The position numbers and the translations under genes are program-made. The notes below the pieces were generated by a model that was not told where the DNA came from, did not search any database, and was given only the letters and a program-made list of their open reading frames with translations. A stretch of 64,000 nucleotides of DNA, from IMG/VR virus record IMGVR_UViG_3300046328_000321, positions 49,369-113,368 of that record; one strand, written 5' to 3'. This stretch comes from a virus. Numbering within the stretch: the stretch's first letter is position 1; every line of letters begins with the position of its first letter. This document shows, in pieces, positions 13,548 to 49,460 of the stretch.

Positions 13548-13640
13548 CCCTTTCTAAAAAGACACAATCATATAAACTATAATTGGTAATCTATCTCGGA
13601 TAATTTTTATTCCGAGATATTATCTAATGAAGAACAGATT

Positions 13641-13667
13641 GGGCGGATGGCGAAATAGGTAGACGCA
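13641..13667 (+). pseudogene. 5' fragment of a Leu-type tRNA gene
   Basis: GGGCGGATGGCGAAATAGGT followed by AGACGC is the acceptor strand and D-arm of a tRNA-Leu-like gene. It stops abruptly where the anticodon arm should begin and an HNH gene follows after three bases. Its acceptor strand GGGCGGA pairs with TCTGCCC at 14603-14609, about 940 nt downstream, not with any nearer sequence. Confidence 0.7.
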
Positions 13668-13670
13668 AAA

Positions 13671-14168
13671 ATGGATAAAGAAAAACTTCTTGGATTATAT
13701 CCAGGTTACACTTCTGTTTTGGGACCTTACACAAGGCCGGACGGTAGAAAACACGTTATACTTAATAATTCTAACGCTTCTAACGGAACTAAGGGTAAGA
13801 CTAAAACTATCTCTTACCCCAAAGCCTTAATGGAAGTTGAATTAAATAAGAAACTCAATCCAGATGAAACTGTCGATCACCATGACAGAGATTTCACTAA
13901 CGATAACAGTATTAATTTAAAAGTGAAGACGCGCTCTTTACACGCGTCTGAAGATGCTTTACGAATTAAGGTAGAAGATATTAGATGTCCACAATGTGGA
14001 AAATATTTTACACCTAGTGTAAGTCAAAGAAATAAAGTAAACAGTATAATTGCTGGTCCATTTTGTAGTAAACAGTGTTCCGGGTTATATGGAACAAATA
14101 TTCAAAAAGGTATGCAGCCTTTTAAGAGAACAGAAATTAGAAAATATTACTATCGTAAAGATAAATAA
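13671..14168 (+). CDS. HNH homing endonuclease inserted in a tRNA
   Basis: 165 residues. The catalytic core reads ETVDHHDRDFTNDNSINL (about residues 68-85), an HNH motif in the style of phage homing endonucleases. It is followed by a CPQCGK...CSKQC zinc-binding tail (about residues 107-138). It begins four bases after the tRNA 5-prime fragment at 13641. Such enzymes cut tRNA genes or intron-less alleles and spread by repair. No group I intron core surrounds it, so this looks like a free-standing insertion that broke the tRNA. The HNH assignment is confident; the cleavage target is inferred from position. Confidence 0.85.
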   Translation: MDKEKLLGLYPGYTSVLGPYTRPDGRKHVILNNSNASNGTKGKTKTISYPKALMEVELNKKLNPDETVDHHDRDFTNDNSINLKVKTRSLHASEDALRIKVEDIRCPQCGKYFTPSVSQRNKVNSIIAGPFCSKQCSGLYGTNIQKGMQPFKRTEIRKYYYRKDK

Positions 14169-14191: not shown

Positions 14192-14521
14192 GGCCCGCTG
14201 ATGAAATTGGTAGACATAACGGAAAACCAGAAAGTTAGTCCGCCTTTACTAGTAATAGTAAAGTAAACTGTGGGTGAACTCAGGAGAATCTAAAGCGCAA
14301 GCCATGATAATCGTGAGCCAAGCTAGAAGTACACTTCTAGAAGGTGCAGAGACTACTGGAAAGGTAAAGTCCTTTTAATAACCAGCTAGAGCGCCCACTA
14401 CCGTAATAGAATTTCTATCGGTAAAGAGATAGTCCATGTCCATTGGAAACTTTGGAACACATGCTTAAAATCCGTCGCTTCCGAAAGGAGCATTCCGGTT
14501 CGATTCCGGAGCGGGCCACCA
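14192..14521 (+). tRNA. tRNA-Leu(UAA) with group I intron
   Basis: Acceptor GGCCCGC (14192-14198) pairs with GCGGGCC (14511-14517), with encoded ACCA to 14521. The anticodon stem is ACGGA (14219-14223) with TCCGT after the loop CTTAAAA, anticodon TAA. There is a long variable arm, and the T-arm TCCGG/CCGGA is perfect. The exon joint lies at the 5-prime edge of the anticodon loop, so the tRNA needs splicing. UUA codons are frequent in this AT-rich genome, which would give the tRNA a clear benefit. Confidence 0.85.
14224..14463 (+). ncRNA. group I intron in tRNA-Leu(UAA)
   Basis: About 240 nt with no open frame. P7 strands are recognisable (GAGACTAC near 14351 and GATAGTCC near 14427), and the intron ends in the expected G (14463). 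P1 probably uses CGGA at the exon end with TCCG near 14239. The last exon base appears to be A rather than the usual U, so the exact 5-prime splice site is uncertain by a few bases. The site also differs from the cyanobacterial tRNA-Leu intron site inside the anticodon. Confidence 0.7.
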
Positions 14522-14716: not shown

Positions 14717-14732
14717 TTTATTAATAAATAAC

Positions 14733-15398
14733 GCCGGTTTAACTCAGTTGGTAGAGTAATCGCCTTAAAAAAAAAATAATGTTTAAAAGGATTGATTATG
14801 TATAAAAATCAAAAGAGAAGATTAGATACTAACGGTTATATAATAGTTCACTGTCCAGAACACCCAAAAGCAATGAAGAACGGGAGTTTTGAAGGATATG
14901 TTTACGAACATGTTTTGATGGCAGAAGAAATTTTGGATAGATCTGTTAAAGAAGGTGAAGTAGTTCACCATCTTGATGAAAATAAAAGTAATAATTCCCC
15001 TGATAATTTATTGATTTTATCAAACCCAATGCATGTTAAACTTCATGGTTGGTTAAACAAACATGAAATAAAACCTAAAGAAAAACAAGAAGAGCGAATC
15101 AGATTAGGTTGTATCAGATGTAAAACATGTGAAAAACCAATTTTACCTAATTTAATATACTGTTCTCCTCAGTGCACATTCTTTGATAAAAGAAAATATG
15201 ATCATCCGAATAAAGAAACTTTGACTCAAATGGTCTGGTCTGAACCTACTTCTAAAGTTGCTATGAAATTAGGTGTTTCAGACAAAGCCATAGAAAAACT
15301 TTGTAAGAAATTTGAAGTTGAAAAACCTCCCAGAGGTTATTGGATGAAAAATAAATCAAAAGTGTAAGTCGTCTGTTCGAGTCAGACAACCGGCACCA
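14733..15398 (+). pseudogene. tRNA gene split by an HNH gene
   Basis: The 5-prime part GCCGGTT, D-arm ACTCAGTTGGTAGAGT and half an anticodon stem end near 14766. The 3-prime part (variable loop, T-stem GTCTG/CAGAC, acceptor AACCGGC, ACCA) runs from about 15364 to 15398. The acceptor halves match perfectly. The 600-nt insert holds an HNH gene whose stop codon overlaps the tRNA 3-prime part. I see no group I core and no 3-prime anticodon-stem strand, so the anticodon cannot be read. The tRNA is likely dead unless the insert is removed by an unknown route. Confidence 0.7.
14798..15367 (+). CDS. HNH endonuclease inserted in a tRNA
   Basis: 189 residues. The core EVVHHLDENKSNNSPDNL (about residues 47-64) is a textbook HNH motif, followed by a CKTCEKPIL...CSPQC zinc pair (residues 109-126) and a short helix-turn-helix-like stretch with VAMKLGVSDKAIEKLC (about residues 148-165) that may read DNA. 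ATG 14798 follows AAAAGG; a TTG six bases upstream is less likely. It sits exactly inside a tRNA gene, and its last codons double as tRNA sequence. It resembles the HNH gene at 13671 in size and architecture, so both may belong to one mobile family specific for tRNA genes. Confidence 0.85.
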   Translation: MYKNQKRRLDTNGYIIVHCPEHPKAMKNGSFEGYVYEHVLMAEEILDRSVKEGEVVHHLDENKSNNSPDNLLILSNPMHVKLHGWLNKHEIKPKEKQEERIRLGCIRCKTCEKPILPNLIYCSPQCTFFDKRKYDHPNKETLTQMVWSEPTSKVAMKLGVSDKAIEKLCKKFEVEKPPRGYWMKNKSKV

Positions 15399-15643: not shown

Positions 15644-16243
15644 ATGAAACTTTTTATTGAGGGTGACAAATTCAAGGCAATTTGCAGTCACTGTAAAGAT
15701 TGGGTTGACACGACCTTCAAATATCGGGATGTGTCGTTCAGCAACGGTTCCGGTGTGGTGAAAGACATCCTGGTTGCGGTGTGCGACAGCTGTGGTCAAG
15801 TGGTGGCCACCCCGCCCCAGTCCACTCCAAAAATAAAGAAATCGCGCGCCAAAGCGCTCAAGTCGGTGGAAGTCAGTGTCCCAGCCACTCTGGACGATGC
15901 GGTGAACGTAGCGATGCACGCTATTGATGTCGACTTCTCACAAGAATTCAAAAAGAAGGCCTTGTGGCTGTTTGTGCGAACCTACGCCAATGGTCCTAAA
16001 GACCCGATCGGGTTGAAGGCGGAATATGCAGCCAAGATTGGTGCTTTTGGGAAAGTCAAGTCTCGGTTTTCTTTCAAGGTTTCAGAGGCGATGCTGGTGG
16101 ATCTCAAAAAGGCTTCCGAAACCTTCGGTGAGAATCAAACAGAAACACTCAAGATTGCCGCCTTTGACCTTTACAACAAAGTCATTGAGCAGAAAGACAA
16201 GCGGCTGATTGCCAAGCTGCGGGACATCGCCTACATGGCGTGA
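15644..16243 (+). CDS. zinc-ribbon protein, GC-rich outlier
   Basis: 199 residues. Residues 12-45 carry a four-Cys ribbon (ICSHCKDW ... VCDSCGQV), then a Lys/Ala-rich linker and a helical domain. The codon choice is markedly more GC-rich than the neighbours, suggesting separate acquisition. ATG 15644 is chosen because GGAG lies six bases upstream; ATGs at 15617 and 15632 are less well placed. The ribbon resembles those of small regulators, such as YgiT/MqsA-type antitoxin N-termini, but no partner toxin is visible. Stands alone between terminators. Function unknown. Confidence 0.65.
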   Translation: MKLFIEGDKFKAICSHCKDWVDTTFKYRDVSFSNGSGVVKDILVAVCDSCGQVVATPPQSTPKIKKSRAKALKSVEVSVPATLDDAVNVAMHAIDVDFSQEFKKKALWLFVRTYANGPKDPIGLKAEYAAKIGAFGKVKSRFSFKVSEAMLVDLKKASETFGENQTETLKIAAFDLYNKVIEQKDKRLIAKLRDIAYMA

Positions 16244-16355
16244 GCTGGTGTCACCGAAGGTCCAACTCTTTAGCCTTTGTCCTTTCCCACTATCCCAACT
16301 GCTCCTGCAGCCATTCCCTAGTGCATAGCGTAGAAATTATGCGTAGGTCCTATTT

Positions 16356-26553: not shown

Positions 26554-28389
26554 ATGGCTATCATTCACGACGACAAAATCACCACCTCTGCTCCTAAGGT
26601 ACAAGACCAGCATGTTAATACCAACACTGCTGCCGTACAGCGTAATAGCTGGAACTTTGGTTCCGGTGGTAATATTTTTGCGGCACCTATTGGTCGCAGT
26701 ATCGGTTCAGAAGTTTACAACGAGCTGAAAGGTTCGCTGATTGAGATTTATAAGAATGCTCAAAGTGATGCGTCTATCTCCATCTTGGACATGGATAATC
26801 AAAACGAAAGTGCTCTTGCATTTTCATGTCTGATTGTTGCCATGCGGTTGAAGAACGTCCCCAATAAGGTTGCATATCACATTCTGATGTTGGAAGCTAC
26901 CGGTGAACGTCCAAATCCAGTAATCCAATATAATGGATCTAAGCAGATTGAACTACATCGTACTGCCGGCGATGCGATCGATGATATCCTTATTGGTAAG
27001 GCAAAGAGTATTGTTCAACGTGCATTTCCTTCTCATGAAACCCATTATACCGACACCACTGTCGTACCAGCGGGTTTCAATATGAAGGACAAAGCGGCTG
27101 TATACAAGTTGGCGTTGAATGCTGGTCTAGCCAACGGTACCGAATTGGAAACTTCTTCCAACACGTTCCAGGATCTGAATGTGAGTCAGATTCCCCAAGG
27201 TCAGCAATTGGTAGTGAACATGACCTTCGGGTCCACACCCATCGCCGATGATGTCGGTAACCTGATGCGTTCTGACTTCCAATTGAGCTTTGCTGCACAA
27301 AACAGTAAAGCTCAAAACAATCAGTCGTTGAACAGTGGGGGTCGTGAGACTCGTATTGCTGACGTGGCTGGTTTTGTGGAAATGCTTTGGGCACCTGTGG
27401 AACCCATGGTCAATCCATACATGCCTGTGCAACAACGACAGACACAGAAATTTGCTGCTCGTTCTGTCATCACCAGCATGACTTCTACACACAGCTATAC
27501 TCCTGGATCTATGCTGTTGGCTGTGGCTATGTTGGACGCTTTGGCTCTCCATAATAACTATTACCAAGTCTTCCGTCCCTCTATGACGAAAGATCTGGAT
27601 ATTCGTGATGTGGGTGCCCTGAATATTGAAGGTAACTACGATAACAACCCAACCGGTGTGTCGTCTGTACTGGATACCAAGTCCTCCAGCTTCTCTCATG
27701 AGAACCTGGGTATGTTCTTGAATGCTTTAGTGCGTCCTGGTATGTTGGTGGCTATCGATTGTCCAGTCGGCGGTGCTCAATCTTGGTATACAGGTCTGTA
27801 CGATGCAGCTTCCACTCGTGGTGGTTCTGCCTATGACATCTTATACACAGCTGCGCAAGAACTGACGAATGGTAACTTTGCTCGTTTGTTCCCCAAGGGT
27901 GCACAGATGTTCTTGGATGCGGGTAATCGTATTCATACGGGTATCTATACTGATCGCCAAGGTGCTCAGCGTGATATTCGAGATATCGACTATCTTGCAG
28001 CAGCAAACATTCTGGGTGCTAATAACGTGCAAGCGTTGCGTCAGTACACTGAAACATTCTGGAATCAGAACATCAGCTTGGCTGAGCGTTTGTCGGATCG
28101 TAAGCGTATGATTTCCAGCATGACCAACGAGACTGCTACTTTTACCGGGTATGCAAATCGAGTTACTTTTTCTGGTACTTTCATCGAAGCACTACGTAAA
28201 GGTATCCAGGCATGTAACATGAATGTACGGATCAACAGTCCGATGAGCGGTGCAGATTTCAACGCTCAACGCGGCGTTGCAACATTTGCTAACGCAGGTC
28301 TGATTGTACCTACCGGTTCGTTCATGGGTTTTGGCATTGCTCCTCAACACATGCAAAACATGATGCACATGGGTGGTTACCGCTATTAA
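26554..28389 (+). CDS. chmA: phage nucleus shell protein (chimallin-like, phiKZ gp54 position)
   Basis: 611 residues, close to the usual length (about 600-630) of chimallin, which self-assembles into the protein lattice that encloses replicating jumbo-phage DNA. The call rests on size, on the invariant order shell gene then RNAP beta-prime N-terminal gene (gp54-gp55 in phiKZ), on the isolated promoter and terminator, and on codon use that looks selected for high expression. An N-terminal disordered stretch is followed by SGGNIFAAPIGRSIGSE, and the end is Met/Gly-rich (QHMQNMMHMGGYRY). A major capsid protein is the main alternative, but these are longer and lie elsewhere in phiKZ-like phages. 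Confidence 0.75.
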   Translation: MAIIHDDKITTSAPKVQDQHVNTNTAAVQRNSWNFGSGGNIFAAPIGRSIGSEVYNELKGSLIEIYKNAQSDASISILDMDNQNESALAFSCLIVAMRLKNVPNKVAYHILMLEATGERPNPVIQYNGSKQIELHRTAGDAIDDILIGKAKSIVQRAFPSHETHYTDTTVVPAGFNMKDKAAVYKLALNAGLANGTELETSSNTFQDLNVSQIPQGQQLVVNMTFGSTPIADDVGNLMRSDFQLSFAAQNSKAQNNQSLNSGGRETRIADVAGFVEMLWAPVEPMVNPYMPVQQRQTQKFAARSVITSMTSTHSYTPGSMLLAVAMLDALALHNNYYQVFRPSMTKDLDIRDVGALNIEGNYDNNPTGVSSVLDTKSSSFSHENLGMFLNALVRPGMLVAIDCPVGGAQSWYTGLYDAASTRGGSAYDILYTAAQELTNGNFARLFPKGAQMFLDAGNRIHTGIYTDRQGAQRDIRDIDYLAAANILGANNVQALRQYTETFWNQNISLAERLSDRKRMISSMTNETATFTGYANRVTFSGTFIEALRKGIQACNMNVRINSPMSGADFNAQRGVATFANAGLIVPTGSFMGFGIAPQHMQNMMHMGGYRY

Positions 28390-28548: not shown

Positions 28549-31380
28549 ATGCCTGTCATACAGGAAATCATTCAGTTTGATGATATGTTTCATAAACTAC
28601 ATCACACACCTACTCTTATTAACCACATAGCTTGCGCCACATTGGAAGATAGGGAGAAGGTAAAAGAAATTCTTACCACTCATCTTAACAGTGATCAGAT
28701 AAGTTTAGTACCTTCATGTCAATGCGGAGCTACTAAAGGTGAATATTCCAAGAGTATGGTTTGTCCCGTCTGTAATACAGAAGTAAAAACTTCTGTGACT
28801 ACAGATATCGAACCAGTAGTCTGGCTGAAGCAACCAGAGAGTGTGGATAAGTTGATCAGTCCTATCTTTCTGATGATGTTAATCAAAAGGTTTACCAAAT
28901 CAGGATTCTCAGTGATCGAATGGTTATGTAATACAAATTACTCTTCGACATCTAAACCTCCTGATAAAGTATTAGCTAAAATCCAGACATGTGGGATTGA
29001 ACGAGGTTATAACAACTTCGTTAGGAATTTTGATCCTATTATGGATTTGTTGTTTTCATTCATTGAGTTTGCTCCTAAAACTCAAAAGTTTGAAATGAAA
29101 CAAGAAGACAAAATAGATCATTTACAACAACTAATCAGAGATCACAGAAACGCGATCTTTAGTGAGTATTTACCCATCCCAAATAAGATCATTTTGATCT
29201 TTGACACCCAGCCATTAGGGACTTATACTGATCCTTCAGTAATGAAAGCTGTGGATGCTATTAACACAATGGTGTCCATTGATCGAGATTTCTATGATCA
29301 GAGTTCAAAAACCAAACAGAACCGTACGATCAAAGCTTTGATGTTACTTTGTGATTTTTATAACGATACCTTATTGTTAATGGCACATAAGCATGGTCAT
29401 TTCCGTAAGCACATGTTTGGTAGTAGAACCAATTTTTCTTTCCGAGCTGTAATCACATCGATTACAGCCGGTAAGAATTATGATGAGATCGAAGCTCCAT
29501 GGTGTATGGCAATCACAGCATTCCGTATTCATTTGTTGAATAAACTTTTGAAATACGGTATGGGTCATAACGAAGGGTTAGGATTTTTGTATAAACATAC
29601 GTACAAACACCATTCTCTTCTGGAAAGATTCATGCAGGAGATGATTGATGAGACCCCAATGAAAGGTATTTTCATTTGTTTGCAACGCAATTAACTATTT
29701 AGGTTGCCTTTATCAGTAATGGTAAAGTAAAATTCTCCTTAATTGACGGGAACATCCTGCTAAAAACTTGTACACCAAACTACAATAGAAATATATGTAG
29801 CGGCCAAGGTAACTACTTGGGTATGGTAAAAGAAACAAGTCTGGGATAATCCGCAGCCGAACTCTTAACCAGAAATGGAAAGAGATGGGTTCAACGACTA
29901 GTCGAAAGACGTAACTCTTAGCAAGAGTGAAACAGGAGACCCCTTTTGTATAAAAGGGTGAAGATATAGTCTGCTCTCGTATGAATAATACGAGCGGGTG
30001 TCGTAGCACACCGGGTAAAGAGAGTAAGCTGTTTAAGCTGAGCGACTTTACTGGACAATGGCCGAGTTTGTTACAAGGGTCAGCTCAACGAGTGAAAATC
30101 ACAAAGTTCAAAACTAACCCTATGGACTTGACTATAGGGATGCACATCTTAACAGTGCGTGCTAATCATTATTGGCATTTAACCAGGTAACTGGTTAAAG
30201 AATCTCTTCGAATTGCTGGAAACTCCTTAGAGTCTCATTACCACTGCGAGCTGTAAAGCAAAGCCACGGTTTAAAAAGTATGAGAATTGGACAATCAGCA
30301 GCGAAACTTCCTACGGGAAGTACGTTCAACGATCATCGGAGTTACGCCCGAGTAGAACCTCAAGCGAGGAAGAAGTGGAGAGCACCCTACTATTTATGAG
30401 GGTGAAGATATGATCTGTTCCTGTATGAAAATACAGGCGGGTGTCTTAGCACACCGAGTAAAGAGAGTAAGCTATTATAGCTGAGCGGCTTTACTGGACA
30501 ATAAGCCAAATGCTGATCAAAAGGTCCTCTTAACTTGCGAAGGTTAAGATGTATTTCCTGAATTGCTGGGAACTCTCGTTAGACTGTTGAACTAAAGCGG
30601 AGTGTGAAAACACAAACGTAAATGTTTGAAAATCAGCAGGTAGAGACAATCAGCAGCTAAGACGCTAAAGACAGTTGTGAAACTGGCTATGCGTAAAGTT
30701 CAACGACTATCCGGTAGCACGGAGTAGACCCATGAGGGTCAAAGTAGGAAACGTCTCTAGGAAGACGGTGATATAGTCTGCTCTCACATGAGAATGTGAG
30801 CGGGTGTCAAAGCACACCGGGTGAGGAATCGAAAGATGGCTTCACTGGACAAAAGGTTTGATGGTAGAGTATTGCCATCTCTAAACATTCTTAACTGCGG
30901 GAAACTCCTTAGAGCTTTGTTGACCAACCTGTGGTAGAAATACACACAGCGGCTGAACTAACTATTCAGATATGGTAAAACTAACAAAGATTGGACAATC
31001 CGCACCGAAGCTCCTAACTAAGTATATTAACATATACTTACATGGAGTGTGGCCAACGACTATCCCGTAAGGGAGTACACTCAAGCGAGTGGAAACAGAA
31101 TGTACCGAAAGGTAAAGATATAGTCTAATCAGATATGAAAGTATCTGGATCCTTAAGCAAGATCGATGAGTAGTAGCGTACTCAGGTTGGTGCTAGAGAG
31201 TTATGGTTTATGGATGCTCTCAACGTATCCATAGCTCTTGATCAGAAAATGTCAGATATGTGGTATCCACTTTCACCGGAGTTCAACATCTTCCAAATGA
31301 CAAAACCATTTCAAGTATCGGGAAACATAGCGATCCCTAAACCTAACATCGCTACCATTTCATCTTGGTTGGAAAACTAG
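28549..31380 (+). CDS. RNA polymerase beta-prime N-terminal subunit (gp55-like), five exons
   Basis: Predicted exons: 28549-29691, 30062-30163, 30506-30517, 30857-30865 and 31213-31380, giving a 477-residue protein. Exon 1 has a zinc ribbon (CQCGATKGEY ... CPVCNTEV, residues 57-79) and GSRTNFSFRAVIT, the beta-prime RVDYSGRSVI-like segment. The joined exons read MKGIFICLQRN-PSLLQGSAQ ... LTVRA-PNAD-FDG-DALNVSIALD, restoring the universal NADFDGD Mg2+ motif with its three catalytic aspartates and the preceding R-x-PSL element. All joints are in frame, every intron ends in G, and each 5-prime site ends in U. It forms the non-virion phage RNAP with the products at 35881, 41229 and 43719 plus a beta N-terminal subunit not in this window. 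Confidence 0.88.
29692..30061 (+). ncRNA. group I intron 1 of the beta-prime gene
   Basis: 370 nt without its own gene. P1: exon end GCAAU with intron GUUGC (29704 region), with the conserved U-G at the splice site. P7 strands GACTAG (near 29897) and ATAGTC (near 29966). Ends in G before CCG (Pro). The 3-prime third (ACCGGGTAAAGAGAGTAAGC) is shared with intron 2. Confidence 0.8.
30164..30505 (+). ncRNA. group I intron 2 of the beta-prime gene
   Basis: 342 nt. P1: exon GUGCU with intron GGCAU, U-G at the splice site. Contains the ATGATCTG/GCGGGTGTC core like intron 1 and the related ACCGAGTAAAGAGAGTAAGC segment. Ends in G before CCA (Pro). No reading frame of note. Confidence 0.78.
30518..30856 (+). 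ncRNA. group I intron 3 of the beta-prime gene
   Basis: 339 nt between GAT (Asp of NAD) and TTT (Phe of FDG). P1 is short: exon GAU with intron GUC, U-G at the splice site. Carries GATATAGTCTGC (P7) and an end, ACCGGGTGAGGAATCGAAAG then ATGGCTTCACTGGACAAAAG, almost identical to the end of the beta-gene intron at 42411. Confidence 0.78.
30866..31212 (+). ncRNA. group I intron 4 of the beta-prime gene
   Basis: 347 nt between GGT (Gly of FDG) and GAT (last Asp of the motif). P1 is excellent: exon GAUGGU with intron GCCAUC, six pairs ending in U-G. Bases 30996-31077 are identical to 42562-42643 in the beta-gene intron. P7 strands GACTAT and ATAGTC are visible. Ends in G. Confidence 0.82.
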
Positions 31381-41242: not shown

Positions 41243-43711
41243 ACTGAAACTTCAATATGTGGGTATACAAGGACTTAATTCTTACTGTATGCATAATTCA
41301 TCATCACGAGCTGTGATGTTTTCTTCTCACATTGGACAACGTCTGGTAATTGAAGGAGCTCAACAGAAACTTGTACAAACTGGGCTTGAACAAGAATTTG
41401 GTAAATATACGTTCAATGTCAAGATGCCTGAGAATGGTCGTATTGTTGCTATCTTAGACAGGTATCCTCGTGGTGTAGGTAGTAAATCTCTTAATTTCAA
41501 TCCAGAGACCTATGTCTTCTTTGAACGTGAAGACAACAAGCAAGTAGATTATATTCTCATCCCGTACAAAGCTCAGTTCCATCAGAATTTTGGTTTTAAG
41601 TACAAGATGAATAAGAAAAATATCGGAAAGCTTCAGCCAGGTGCTTATATTGCAAAAGATACTATTTTTGCAGACAGTCCTGCTGTTTCTGACAATGGTA
41701 ATTTCATGTTTGGTATCAATGCCAACATTGCCCTGATGTCCATTCCCTCAGTGGCTGAAGATGGCATTATGATCTCCAGAGACTTTCTACCTAAGTTAAA
41801 GTTCAAGATTTATGATACTCGACAAGTCAACTTTGGATCTAAACAATTTCCATTGAACCTTTATGGTACTTTGGATGAAGTAAAACCATTTCCTGAGATC
41901 GGAGATAAGATTCGAGAAGATGGTATTTTGATGGCTTTTAGAGACTTTAACACAGCTCTGTCTCCTGTTGAAATGTCTAAGATGGATTTAATGGAAGTAG
42001 ATCACACTTTTGATGAATGTGTATATGTACGAGGTGGTGTGGGTACTGTGGTTGACATTAAGATTACCAGAAACAACTCACCTATTAAGAACATGCCTGT
42101 GGAAATGTCATGTTATCTGAACCGTTACTGGGAAGCCAATCAAGCTTTTTATAAGAAAGTTATTGATTTAGAAGCCGGTCTGCGTAAAGATAACCGAATG
42201 AAATTTGGAACCACTGATATTTTAACAACATCAAAGTTTGATAAATTAGTTTATGAGGCTATGGTGCATACTAACCATAACTTCAATCAGTTTAAACAAC
42301 CTCTTCAACTCCAATCACGTAAGTCTACTGTAGACGAATACCAGATACAATTTACTATTGAATACACCATTGAACCCTGTGAAGGATTCAAATTGACTGA
42401 TAATCACGGTTTTTACTAGCCGCTTTTGACAGAGATGTCAATCGATCATTTTCCTAATTGCGGGGAACCACCTAAAGCTTCATTGACCAACTTAGTTACG
42501 AAAGTAAGTTAAGGGCTACGCTAACTACGTAGGTATGGTAAAACTAATGAAGATATATGGGCAATCCGCACCGAAGCTCCTAACTAAGTATATTAACATA
42601 TACTTACATGGAGTGTGGCCAACGACTATCCCGTAAGGGAGTAGGCTCATGAGAGTCGAAATGGAAAGCGTCCTACTGTTGAACAGAGGATGAAGATATA
42701 GTCTGTTCCTACATGAAAGTGTGGGTGGGTGTCACAGCACACCGGGTGAAGAATCGAAAGACGGCTTCACTGGACAAAAAGGGAAAAGGTGTTATTTGTA
42801 AAGTAGAAGAACCTGAGAACATGCCTGTCGATGAAAATGGCAACCGTGCCGACATCGTCATGGATGCAGCTTCTACTATCTCACGTATGAACTTAGGCAG
42901 GCTTTACGAGCAACACATGGCATCTGCCTTGCGCGACGTTACTCAAAATGTTCGCATGTTGTTTGGATTTGAACGATTGAAACCAACATCCATTAAAGCT
43001 GAGAATTTGCTAGACAGTTTTCCAATTCAAAAGATCGAAGAAGCTCATCAGTACGTGTTAGGTTTCTATAACCTTATTTCAGAAAAGCAATATAACTTTT
43101 ATTCTAAACTGACAGATCCTAAGCAAATTGCCGAGCATATCTGTGATATCATATCCGATCACGTTTATGCATATATTCCTATTGATAAACAGATCAGTAG
43201 TAAAGATATCGTGAAACGCATCGAGAATTCCATATACAAACCCGTTTATGGAAAAATTACCTATCGAGGTAATTCTGGTGAGGTCGTGCTTACTGAACGA
43301 AATGTGCGCATTGCTCCTTTATACATGATGTTATTGGAAAAAATCGCTGATGATTGGACAGCTGTAGCCACTGGTAATCTTCAGCTACATGGTTTACTGG
43401 CTCAGGTCAACAGACGTGAAAAGCATTCAAGACCTCATAGGAACACTCCTGTTCGCACCATCGGTGAAACAGAGGGACGTTTATTTGTAGGTTATTGTGG
43501 AAGAGAAGCGGTCGCTGAGATGTTGGATCGTTCAGGTAATCCTCTTGTACAAAGACACATGACTAGGAACATTCTTGAAGCCAATCGTCCAACAAATATC
43601 AATGAGATTGTAGATCGTAACTTGGTTAACTACGGTAATACCAAGTCTGTACAGATCATCAACCATATGTTTACTTGTATGGGTTTTAAAACCAAATACG
43701 TTCCAGAATGA
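41229..43711 (+). CDS. RNA polymerase beta C-terminal subunit (gp71-73-like), two exons
   Basis: Exons 41229-42410 and 42782-43711 give 703 residues. Near the N-terminus MHNSSSRAVMFSSHIGQR corresponds to the beta H-DANRALMGxNMQRQ segment. SVAEDGIMIS matches the EDSIxVSE region. At the joint, KLTDNHG-GKGVICKV restores the GDKxxxRHGNKGVI motif whose lysine lies in the active site. Both joints are in frame. phiKZ gp71-73 is also interrupted by an intron. The start overlaps the 40739 gene. It forms the non-virion RNAP with the gp55-, gp68- and gp74-like products. Confidence 0.88.
42411..42781 (+). ncRNA. group I intron in the RNAP beta gene
   Basis: 371 nt, ORF-less (an apparent ATG at 42713 only reads through the 3-prime end of the intron). 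P1: exon CGGU with intron GCCG, U-G at the splice site. P7 strands GACTAT and ATAGTC. Ends in G. Shares 82 identical bases with beta-prime intron 4 (42562-42643) and its 3-prime end with beta-prime intron 3. Confidence 0.82.
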
Positions 43712-49205: not shown

Positions 49206-49460
49206 ATGGAACTAGTCATTCCAATGGGAGTCGCGACTCACTACGAGTCGTGGACTGACGAAGCCGGTGATGGCTTCATCCTCTGTGACAGGTCGGTCAA
49301 ATCGACCGTGGACGGTAAAGAGGTTACCGTGACAGACCGGTGGGAATCCGGTCCCTGTAACTTTGACAGTGTGCTTGAAGCCACTGTCAAAGTGGGGGGA
49401 GAGATTGTGAAAGCAATCTCTGTCGAAGCCTCAGAAGGGAGATACATTATTTCTCTCTGA
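49206..49460 (+). CDS. small protein encoded by a hairpin-dense GC-rich gene
   Basis: 84 residues starting MELVIPMGVATHYESWTDEA, acidic and beta-rich, ending EGRYIISL; no known domain. Ribosome binding site AGGAGAAACC. The coding DNA is almost tiled with inverted repeats: GAGTCGCGACTC, GAAGCC/GGCTTC, CGGTC/GACCG, CGGTAA/TTACCG, ACCGG/CCGGT, GACAGTG/CACTGTC, GAGATTG/CAATCTC. Base composition sets it apart from neighbours, as for 48707 and 58115. Function unknown. Confidence 0.6.
   Translation: MELVIPMGVATHYESWTDEAGDGFILCDRSVKSTVDGKEVTVTDRWESGPCNFDSVLEATVKVGGEIVKAISVEASEGRYIISL

Follow-up and report, generated by a model that had tools for sequence, protein, structure and literature searches.

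Four predicted group I introns crowd the catalytic-motif region of a chimallivirus RNA polymerase β′ gene and leave micro-exons of 12 and 9 nt

A 64,000-nt stretch of the virus record IMGVR_UViG_3300046328_000321 (positions 49,369 to 113,368; the window) carries a gene for the N-terminal part of the β′ subunit of the non-virion RNA polymerase (nvRNAP), of the phiKZ gp55 type, which is interrupted by four predicted group I introns at and near its catalytic motif, NADFDGD. Read through the predicted joints, the three metal-binding aspartates of the motif are encoded in three separate exons, namely micro-exon 3, micro-exon 4, and exon 5; because the introns split the gene at this motif, the enzyme would be made only if RNA splicing works. 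The best explanation, which we hold with high confidence for the full reading including splicing into an intact gp55-type β′ protein, is that mobile group I introns have crowded an active-site hot spot.

Results

Exon–Intron Organization of the nvRNAP β′ Gene

The Rfam group I intron model (RF00028; gathering score 50 bits) scored above its cut-off six times in the window: four full-length matches fell in the β′ gene (29691-29994, 30154-30437, 30481-30800, and 30841-31147; 68.4-87.7 bits) and the others at 42401-42725 and 14208-14456. An initial annotation of the window had proposed four ORF-less group I introns (lacking open reading frames) of 370, 342, 339, and 347 nt in this gene, separated in part by micro-exons for PNAD (12 nt) and FDG (9 nt), and the boundaries in Table 1 agree with it to the nucleotide. 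All joints are in frame, every exon preceding an intron ends in U, and every intron ends in G (four of four), again as proposed; the exon-terminal U faces a guide G in all four. The internal exons of 102, 12, and 9 nt are all multiples of three, and the predicted ligated junction of exons 2-3-4-5 reads CGTGCT^CCAAATGCTGAT^TTTGATGGT^GATGCTCTC. No homing endonuclease ORF was found in the four introns; their longest open frame, 98 aa on the minus strand, is unlike the endonuclease ORFs of related introns.

Table 1. Exons, introns, guides, and other features; positions are those of the window unless preceded by G000:C1
Feature	Position	Strand	Details and evidence
Exon 1, nvRNAP β′ (ends ...LQRN)	28549..29691	+	contiguous homologs
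Group I intron 1, 370 nt, ORF-less, site N381/P382	29692..30061	+	Rfam 79.1 bits; absent in L010
Intron 1 guide GUUGC, P1 with exon end GCAAU	29703..29707	+	covariation
Exon 2, 102 nt, PSLLQGSAQRVKITKFKTNPMDLTIGMHILTVRA	30062..30163	+	joined frame; L010 comparison
Group I intron 2, 342 nt, ORF-less, site A415/P416	30164..30505	+	Rfam 87.7 bits
Intron 2 guide GGCAU, P1 with exon end GUGCU	30174..30178	+	covariation
Micro-exon 3, 12 nt, CCAAATGCTGAT, Pro-Asn-Ala-Asp (PNAD), first catalytic Asp	30506..30517	+	joined frame; L010
Group I intron 3, 339 nt, ORF-less, site D419/F420	30518..30856	+	Rfam 68.5 bits; absent in L010
Intron 3 guide GUC, weak P1 (3 bp) with exon end GAU	30524..30526	+	30521-30523 pairs with UUU of exon 4 (P10)
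Micro-exon 4, 9 nt, TTTGATGGT, Phe-Asp-Gly (FDG), second catalytic Asp	30857..30865	+	joined frame; L010
Group I intron 4, 347 nt, ORF-less, site G422/D423	30866..31212	+	Rfam 68.4 bits
Intron 4 guide AGAGUAUU-GCCAUC, complementary to junction GAUGGU^GAUGCUCU	30866..30879	+	P1 6 bp + P10 8 bp
Exon 5, third catalytic Asp to stop, DALNVSIALD...WLEN	31213..31380	+	joined frame; relatives
Chimallin / nuclear shell protein gene, upstream neighbor	26554..28389	+	PHROG 4795, E 2e-69
Group I intron in nvRNAP β, at DNHG/GKGVI	42411..42781	+	Rfam 76.4 bits
Virion RNA polymerase (vRNAP) β′ split region, outside the window	G000:C1:11435-12330 (L109 2436-3331)		two group I introns
Group I intron in vRNAP β, after two conserved aspartates (DD/GKR)	G000:C1 ~15675-16253 (L109 6676-7254)		
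HNH endonuclease ORF in tRNA-like halves	13671-14168		PHROG 14913
HNH endonuclease ORF in tRNA-like halves	14792-15367		PHROG 15471

When the exons are joined, the reading frame stays open from 28549 to the stop at 31380, NADFDGD included, and specifies 477 aa. The product matched 294 phage records, FLC9 among them (41.5% over 99%, E 1e-119), PHROG 2987 covered its residues 1-476, and its alignment to PDB 7ogp_A (E 7e-73) was unbroken across NADFDGD, bearing out the proposal of a phiKZ-like β′ subunit; homology extends over the full length and includes the conserved Cys. The name of the 7ogp chain, PHIKZ055 + PHIKZ056.1, shows that the phiKZ protein, too, spans an intron joint. The shell protein gene next to the β′ gene reproduces the phiKZ gp54-gp55 order. 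By homology and gene order, the virus is a nucleus-forming giant phage (chimallivirus) and the interrupted gene that of the phiKZ gp55-type nvRNAP β′ N-terminal subunit.

Joints Supported by Intron-Minus Relatives

Most of the 80 IMG/VR relatives fetched for comparison have no interruption over the whole gene, the closest of these being L031, at 53% identity. The IMG/VR contig L010, 79% identical, has introns 2 and 4 and no introns 1 and 3, an arrangement recovered from a second sample as L011. In L010, joint 1 runs uninterrupted as CAAAGAAAT^CCGAGC (AGAAAT^CCGAGC) and joint 3 as CCAAATGCTGATTTTGACGGT (GCTGAT^TTTGAC), and joints 1 and 3 are, at the level of DNA sequence, proved by these intron-minus alleles.

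Relatives with one intron of a pair also bear on the alternative that there are fewer, larger introns, for example that introns 3 and 4 form a single twintron that takes the micro-exon out with it, and that the micro-exons are there by coincidence. With exons so short and cores so alike, ribozyme parts could indeed pair across introns; however, the micro-exons encode precisely the conserved residues that are otherwise missing, intron 4 occurs in L010 where intron 3 is absent and PNADFDG is contiguous, and L050 carries an intron at site 3 and none at site 4, and we regard the twintron as highly improbable.

Guide Pairing at the Splice Sites

Covariation between exon and guide was evident in silico at sites 1, 2, and 4, three of the four. 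At site 1, the pair that lies four bases away from the splice joint reads C-G in the window, A-U in phages kmuB and ANB1 (GAAAU/GUUUC), and G-C in L094 (GGAAU/GUUCC), and the exon U and guide A at site 2 in the window are exon C and guide G in L010. At site 4, compared across 14 loci, the third codon base of the Asp and its guide partner in P1 change together (C/G in 11, U/A in three), and the 8-bp P10 of intron 4 tracks the changes in exon 5. Intron 4 has 14 nt complementary to the ligated junction, a run equaled by one of 5000 shuffled junctions. P10 covaries over its 8 bp in intron 4 and measures 3 bp in intron 3 and 0-1 bp in introns 1 and 2; this helix is not universal among group I introns. 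The guide of intron 3, GUCCU, is conserved in L050 and L064, with no variation there to compare. The initial annotation had claimed complementary P1 guides throughout, strongest in introns 1 and 4, and this was upheld in part: intron 4 is outstanding and sites 1 and 2 covary, but for introns 1-3 the pairing statistics were less favorable.

These statistics are among several points that weigh against splicing into an intact protein. Taken singly, the guides of introns 1-3 were no better than shuffled junctions in P1+P10 run length, and the P1 of intron 3 has only 3 bp; the joints of these introns consequently rest on intron-minus alleles, homology, and covariation. Two ribozymes would both need to fold and act around a 9-nt exon, and splicing is here a prediction from sequence. 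Finally, the record is a 113-kb IMG/VR metagenomic fragment in which no intact second copy of the β′ gene was found, and because it is a fragment, the rest of the genome may hold a separate, intact copy.

The last point leads to the alternative that the region is decaying, the gene having been inactivated by insertions and the real β′ being encoded elsewhere. The fragment's 113 kb leaves room for this, chimallivirus genomes usually exceeding 200 kb. However, purifying selection is strong across all exons (window versus L010 codons: nonsynonymous divergence, pN, 0.13; synonymous divergence, pS, 0.85; pN 0.06 in exons 2-5), every joint is in frame, the neighboring gene order is as in phiKZ, the exons of L010 are intact around the two introns (of four) that it retains, and the ribozymes are kept matched by compensatory changes in exon and guide, all of which makes decay very hard to credit.

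Recurrent Insertion Sites in Other Phages

The same positions are occupied in other phages. Site 1 (N/P) also carries an insertion in kmuB, ANB1, and L094, and L051 breaks there too; site 2 (A/P) is occupied in LucasX and L010; site 3 (D/F) in L035, L050, L064, and L086, with a reading frame break there in vB_pir03 and AVP1; and site 4 (G/D) in SNUABM_54, Totoro, 2050HW, L010, L049, L064, L066, L068, L072, L094, L099, and L100. In addition, the N/A position is used by phiKZ, NK1, kmuB, and ANB1, and the A/D position by L072, L091, and L094. Not all of these loci have an Rfam match above the cut-off, and SNUABM_54, AVP1, L068, and L091 were placed by frame break alone. As a candidate for site 4, PS119XW (L015) was rejected, its U-ending exon GGAGAU and guide GUCUCC putting the insertion one codon later. 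From these alignments, all four sites are recurrent and the motif is a hot spot for group I introns, in keeping with the preference for active-site codons invoked by the initial annotation; many of the insertions in other phages lie in the same 8-codon motif.

Other phages have introns at one to three of these or neighboring positions, and four introns were found in no other locus examined. Micro-exons recur as well in environmental chimalliviruses with two or three introns in this motif: L064 (6237-7618) has a 9-nt FDG exon (TTTGACGGT) between two introns, the one 3′ of it being ~1 kb long and holding an ORF, and L072 (6108-8636) and L094 (6084-7264) each combine three introns with a DFDG exon of 12 nt.

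Other Introns of the Record

Eight of the nine group I introns in the record lie in RNA polymerase subunit genes. In the vRNAP β′ gene of the same contig, two of them split GAD/FD/GD around the 6-nt exon TTCGAT, with a predicted joined junction of GCTGAT^TTCGAT^GGTGAC. The relatives G001 and L120 share this 6-nt exon between introns, in L136 and L139 the first intron is present and the second is not, and FLC9 is uninterrupted (LGADFDGD). In both β′ genes of the contig, each catalytic Asp is thus predicted to sit in a different exon. The vRNAP β intron occupies the position described for the PhiPA3 gp210 intron (PMC11620839), and the flanks of the nvRNAP β intron match PHROG 3295 profile positions 6-402 and 403-690.

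The ninth intron (14192-14521; Rfam 62.4 bits) is inside an apparent tRNA-Leu gene, apparently in the anticodon loop, and this tRNA is not called by ARAGORN. At 13640-14168 and 14732-15397, tRNA-like halves are split by HNH endonuclease ORFs, with no recognized ribozyme around them.

Intron Kinship and Origin

Introns 2 and 4 are nearest to their L010 orthologs (74% and 82%), that of intron 2 having a long ORF 5′ of the ribozyme core. The nearest match of intron 3 is a vRNAP β′ intron of the same contig (73%), and that of intron 1 is the nvRNAP β intron of the relative (71%); the nvRNAP β intron of the window, in turn, is 77% alike to β′ intron 4 over 271 nt. Introns 1 and 2 share 82% identity in their 3′ parts, and the intron pairs flanking micro-exons in L064 (81%) and L094 (73%) are paralogs. 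From such resemblances we infer that introns have moved between sites within one genome, aided by endonuclease-driven homing, as the long ORF in the L010 ortholog of intron 2 suggests; reverse splicing and ectopic recombination are both possible as the route of movement. A megablast search with the region returned only a 41-nt match (31054-31094, 97.6% identity), to the 45-kb Pseudoalteromonas phage HP1, where it falls in a group I intron, which hints at intron exchange between unrelated phages.

Discussion

Intron Crowding and Splicing

The in silico record comprises the introns and their joints, the homology of the product, covariation at three sites, purifying selection, and kinship among introns that occupy different sites within the same genomes. 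In the explanation favored here, four separate ORF-less ribozymes would have gathered in an essential chimallivirus RNA polymerase gene, three in an 8-codon hot spot and one 34 codons upstream. Each would excise itself by guanosine-initiated transesterification with its own internal guide, and the five exons would be joined into a single mRNA for an intact gp55-type β′ subunit with NADFDGD. Spread to neighboring positions may have come about by endonuclease homing from other phages or by moves between sites in one genome, and the micro-exons would have arisen because related introns settled at neighboring positions of the same conserved motif. What we infer is the splicing itself, how efficiently and in what order it proceeds, and how the introns spread.

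As for order, the initial annotation had held that such dense packing forces ordered splicing, and the guides lend this no support. In the cross-pairing table, each exon end pairs best in Watson-Crick terms with its own guide, the guides being mutually orthogonal, and exon 4 is parted without overlap, UUU (3 nt) going to the P10 of intron 3 and GAUGGU (6 nt) to the P1 of intron 4; pairing therefore dictates no splicing order. Two ribozymes held together by a 9-nt tether may compete sterically.

That splicing gates production of the polymerase is a logical possibility, and in its developed form splicing would be a regulatory checkpoint, crowding enforcing order or frequent exon skipping so that active polymerase forms only under certain conditions (guanosine, Mg2+, stage of nucleus maturation). 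The lengths of the internal exons accord with this, since skipping any of them would keep the frame and remove catalytic or neighboring residues, and mis-splicing could thus give an in-frame, catalytically dead protein; so does the likeness of the 3′ parts of introns 1 and 2, as skipping between similar group I introns is documented in Twort orf142 (PMC10136302, PMC3073962) and in SIOphi (PMC11878797). However, the guides are largely orthogonal, skipping is suppressed in engineered tandem introns whose splice-site elements differ (PMC10136302), and many relatives are intron-free here, so that intron-based regulation would not be conserved, and we consider a checkpoint unlikely. Similarly doubtful is its extension to both enzymes, in which NAD/FDG/D of the nvRNAP and GAD/FD/GD of the vRNAP, whose exons of 12, 9, and 6 nt would be shorter than any others known between viral group I introns, would share a checkpoint depending on guanosine and on the separation of transcription from translation in the phage nucleus.

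With mobile introns crowding a hot spot as the preferred explanation, the locus shows how far group I introns can accumulate at an essential active site, three of them in one 8-codon stretch, and its 9-nt exon, like the 6-nt exon of the sister enzyme, offers a natural test of how short an exon such an intron can use. A second question that the locus opens to testing is whether the phage nucleus, by keeping transcription apart from translation, allows introns to build up where ribosomes would otherwise stand in the way. Such micro-exons are invisible to standard gene finders, and jumbo-phage polymerase genes in metagenomes are therefore likely to be annotated as truncated.

Comparison With Known Systems

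Introns in chimallivirus RNA polymerase genes (phiKZ, PhiPA3) and short exons between group I introns (Twort, phiNIT1, and mitochondria) are already known. In the literature searched, which included few subscription papers, we came across no exons of 6-12 nt reported between group I introns of phages, only the Twort and Bastillevirinae cases, and no catalytic triad reported as split among three exons.

A close parallel is phiKZ gp55 (PHIKZ055 / HNH gp56 / PHIKZ056.1), with a group I intron inside NADFDGD of the same nvRNAP β′ gene; the solved phiKZ nvRNAP chain has DFDGD at 417-421 (PMC7618050). Unlike the gene described here, phiKZ has a single intron, placed between Asn and Ala; an endonuclease gene separates its exons, and there is no micro-exon. 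In PhiPA3 gp211-gp210-gp209, likewise, a group I intron interrupts a chimallivirus RNA polymerase subunit, vRNAP β, at a conserved position, and the gp210 intron was shown to act in competition with phiKZ (PMC11620839), but it is single, HNH-bearing, and not in β′.

Staphylococcus phage Twort orf142 has three group I introns in one gene and a short exon between two similar introns, and self-splicing with exon skipping was shown for it experimentally (PMC10136302, PMC3073962), but its short exon is 23 nt and carries no catalytic motif. In Bastillevirinae (phiNIT1 rNDPL, SIOphi TerL), where both the phages and the genes are different, single genes contain several group I introns, a small exon is enclosed by two introns, and exon skipping occurs (PMC11878797). 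The smallest exons are those of organellar cox1, where intron-crowded conserved genes contain tiny exons of 3 nt in Agaricus bisporus (PMC2987802) and 1 bp in placozoans (PMC5436844); these genes are mitochondrial, however, the A. bisporus introns exceed 1 kb, many with endonuclease genes, and the 3-nt exon has a group II intron, iAbi2, as one of its neighbors (PMC2987802).
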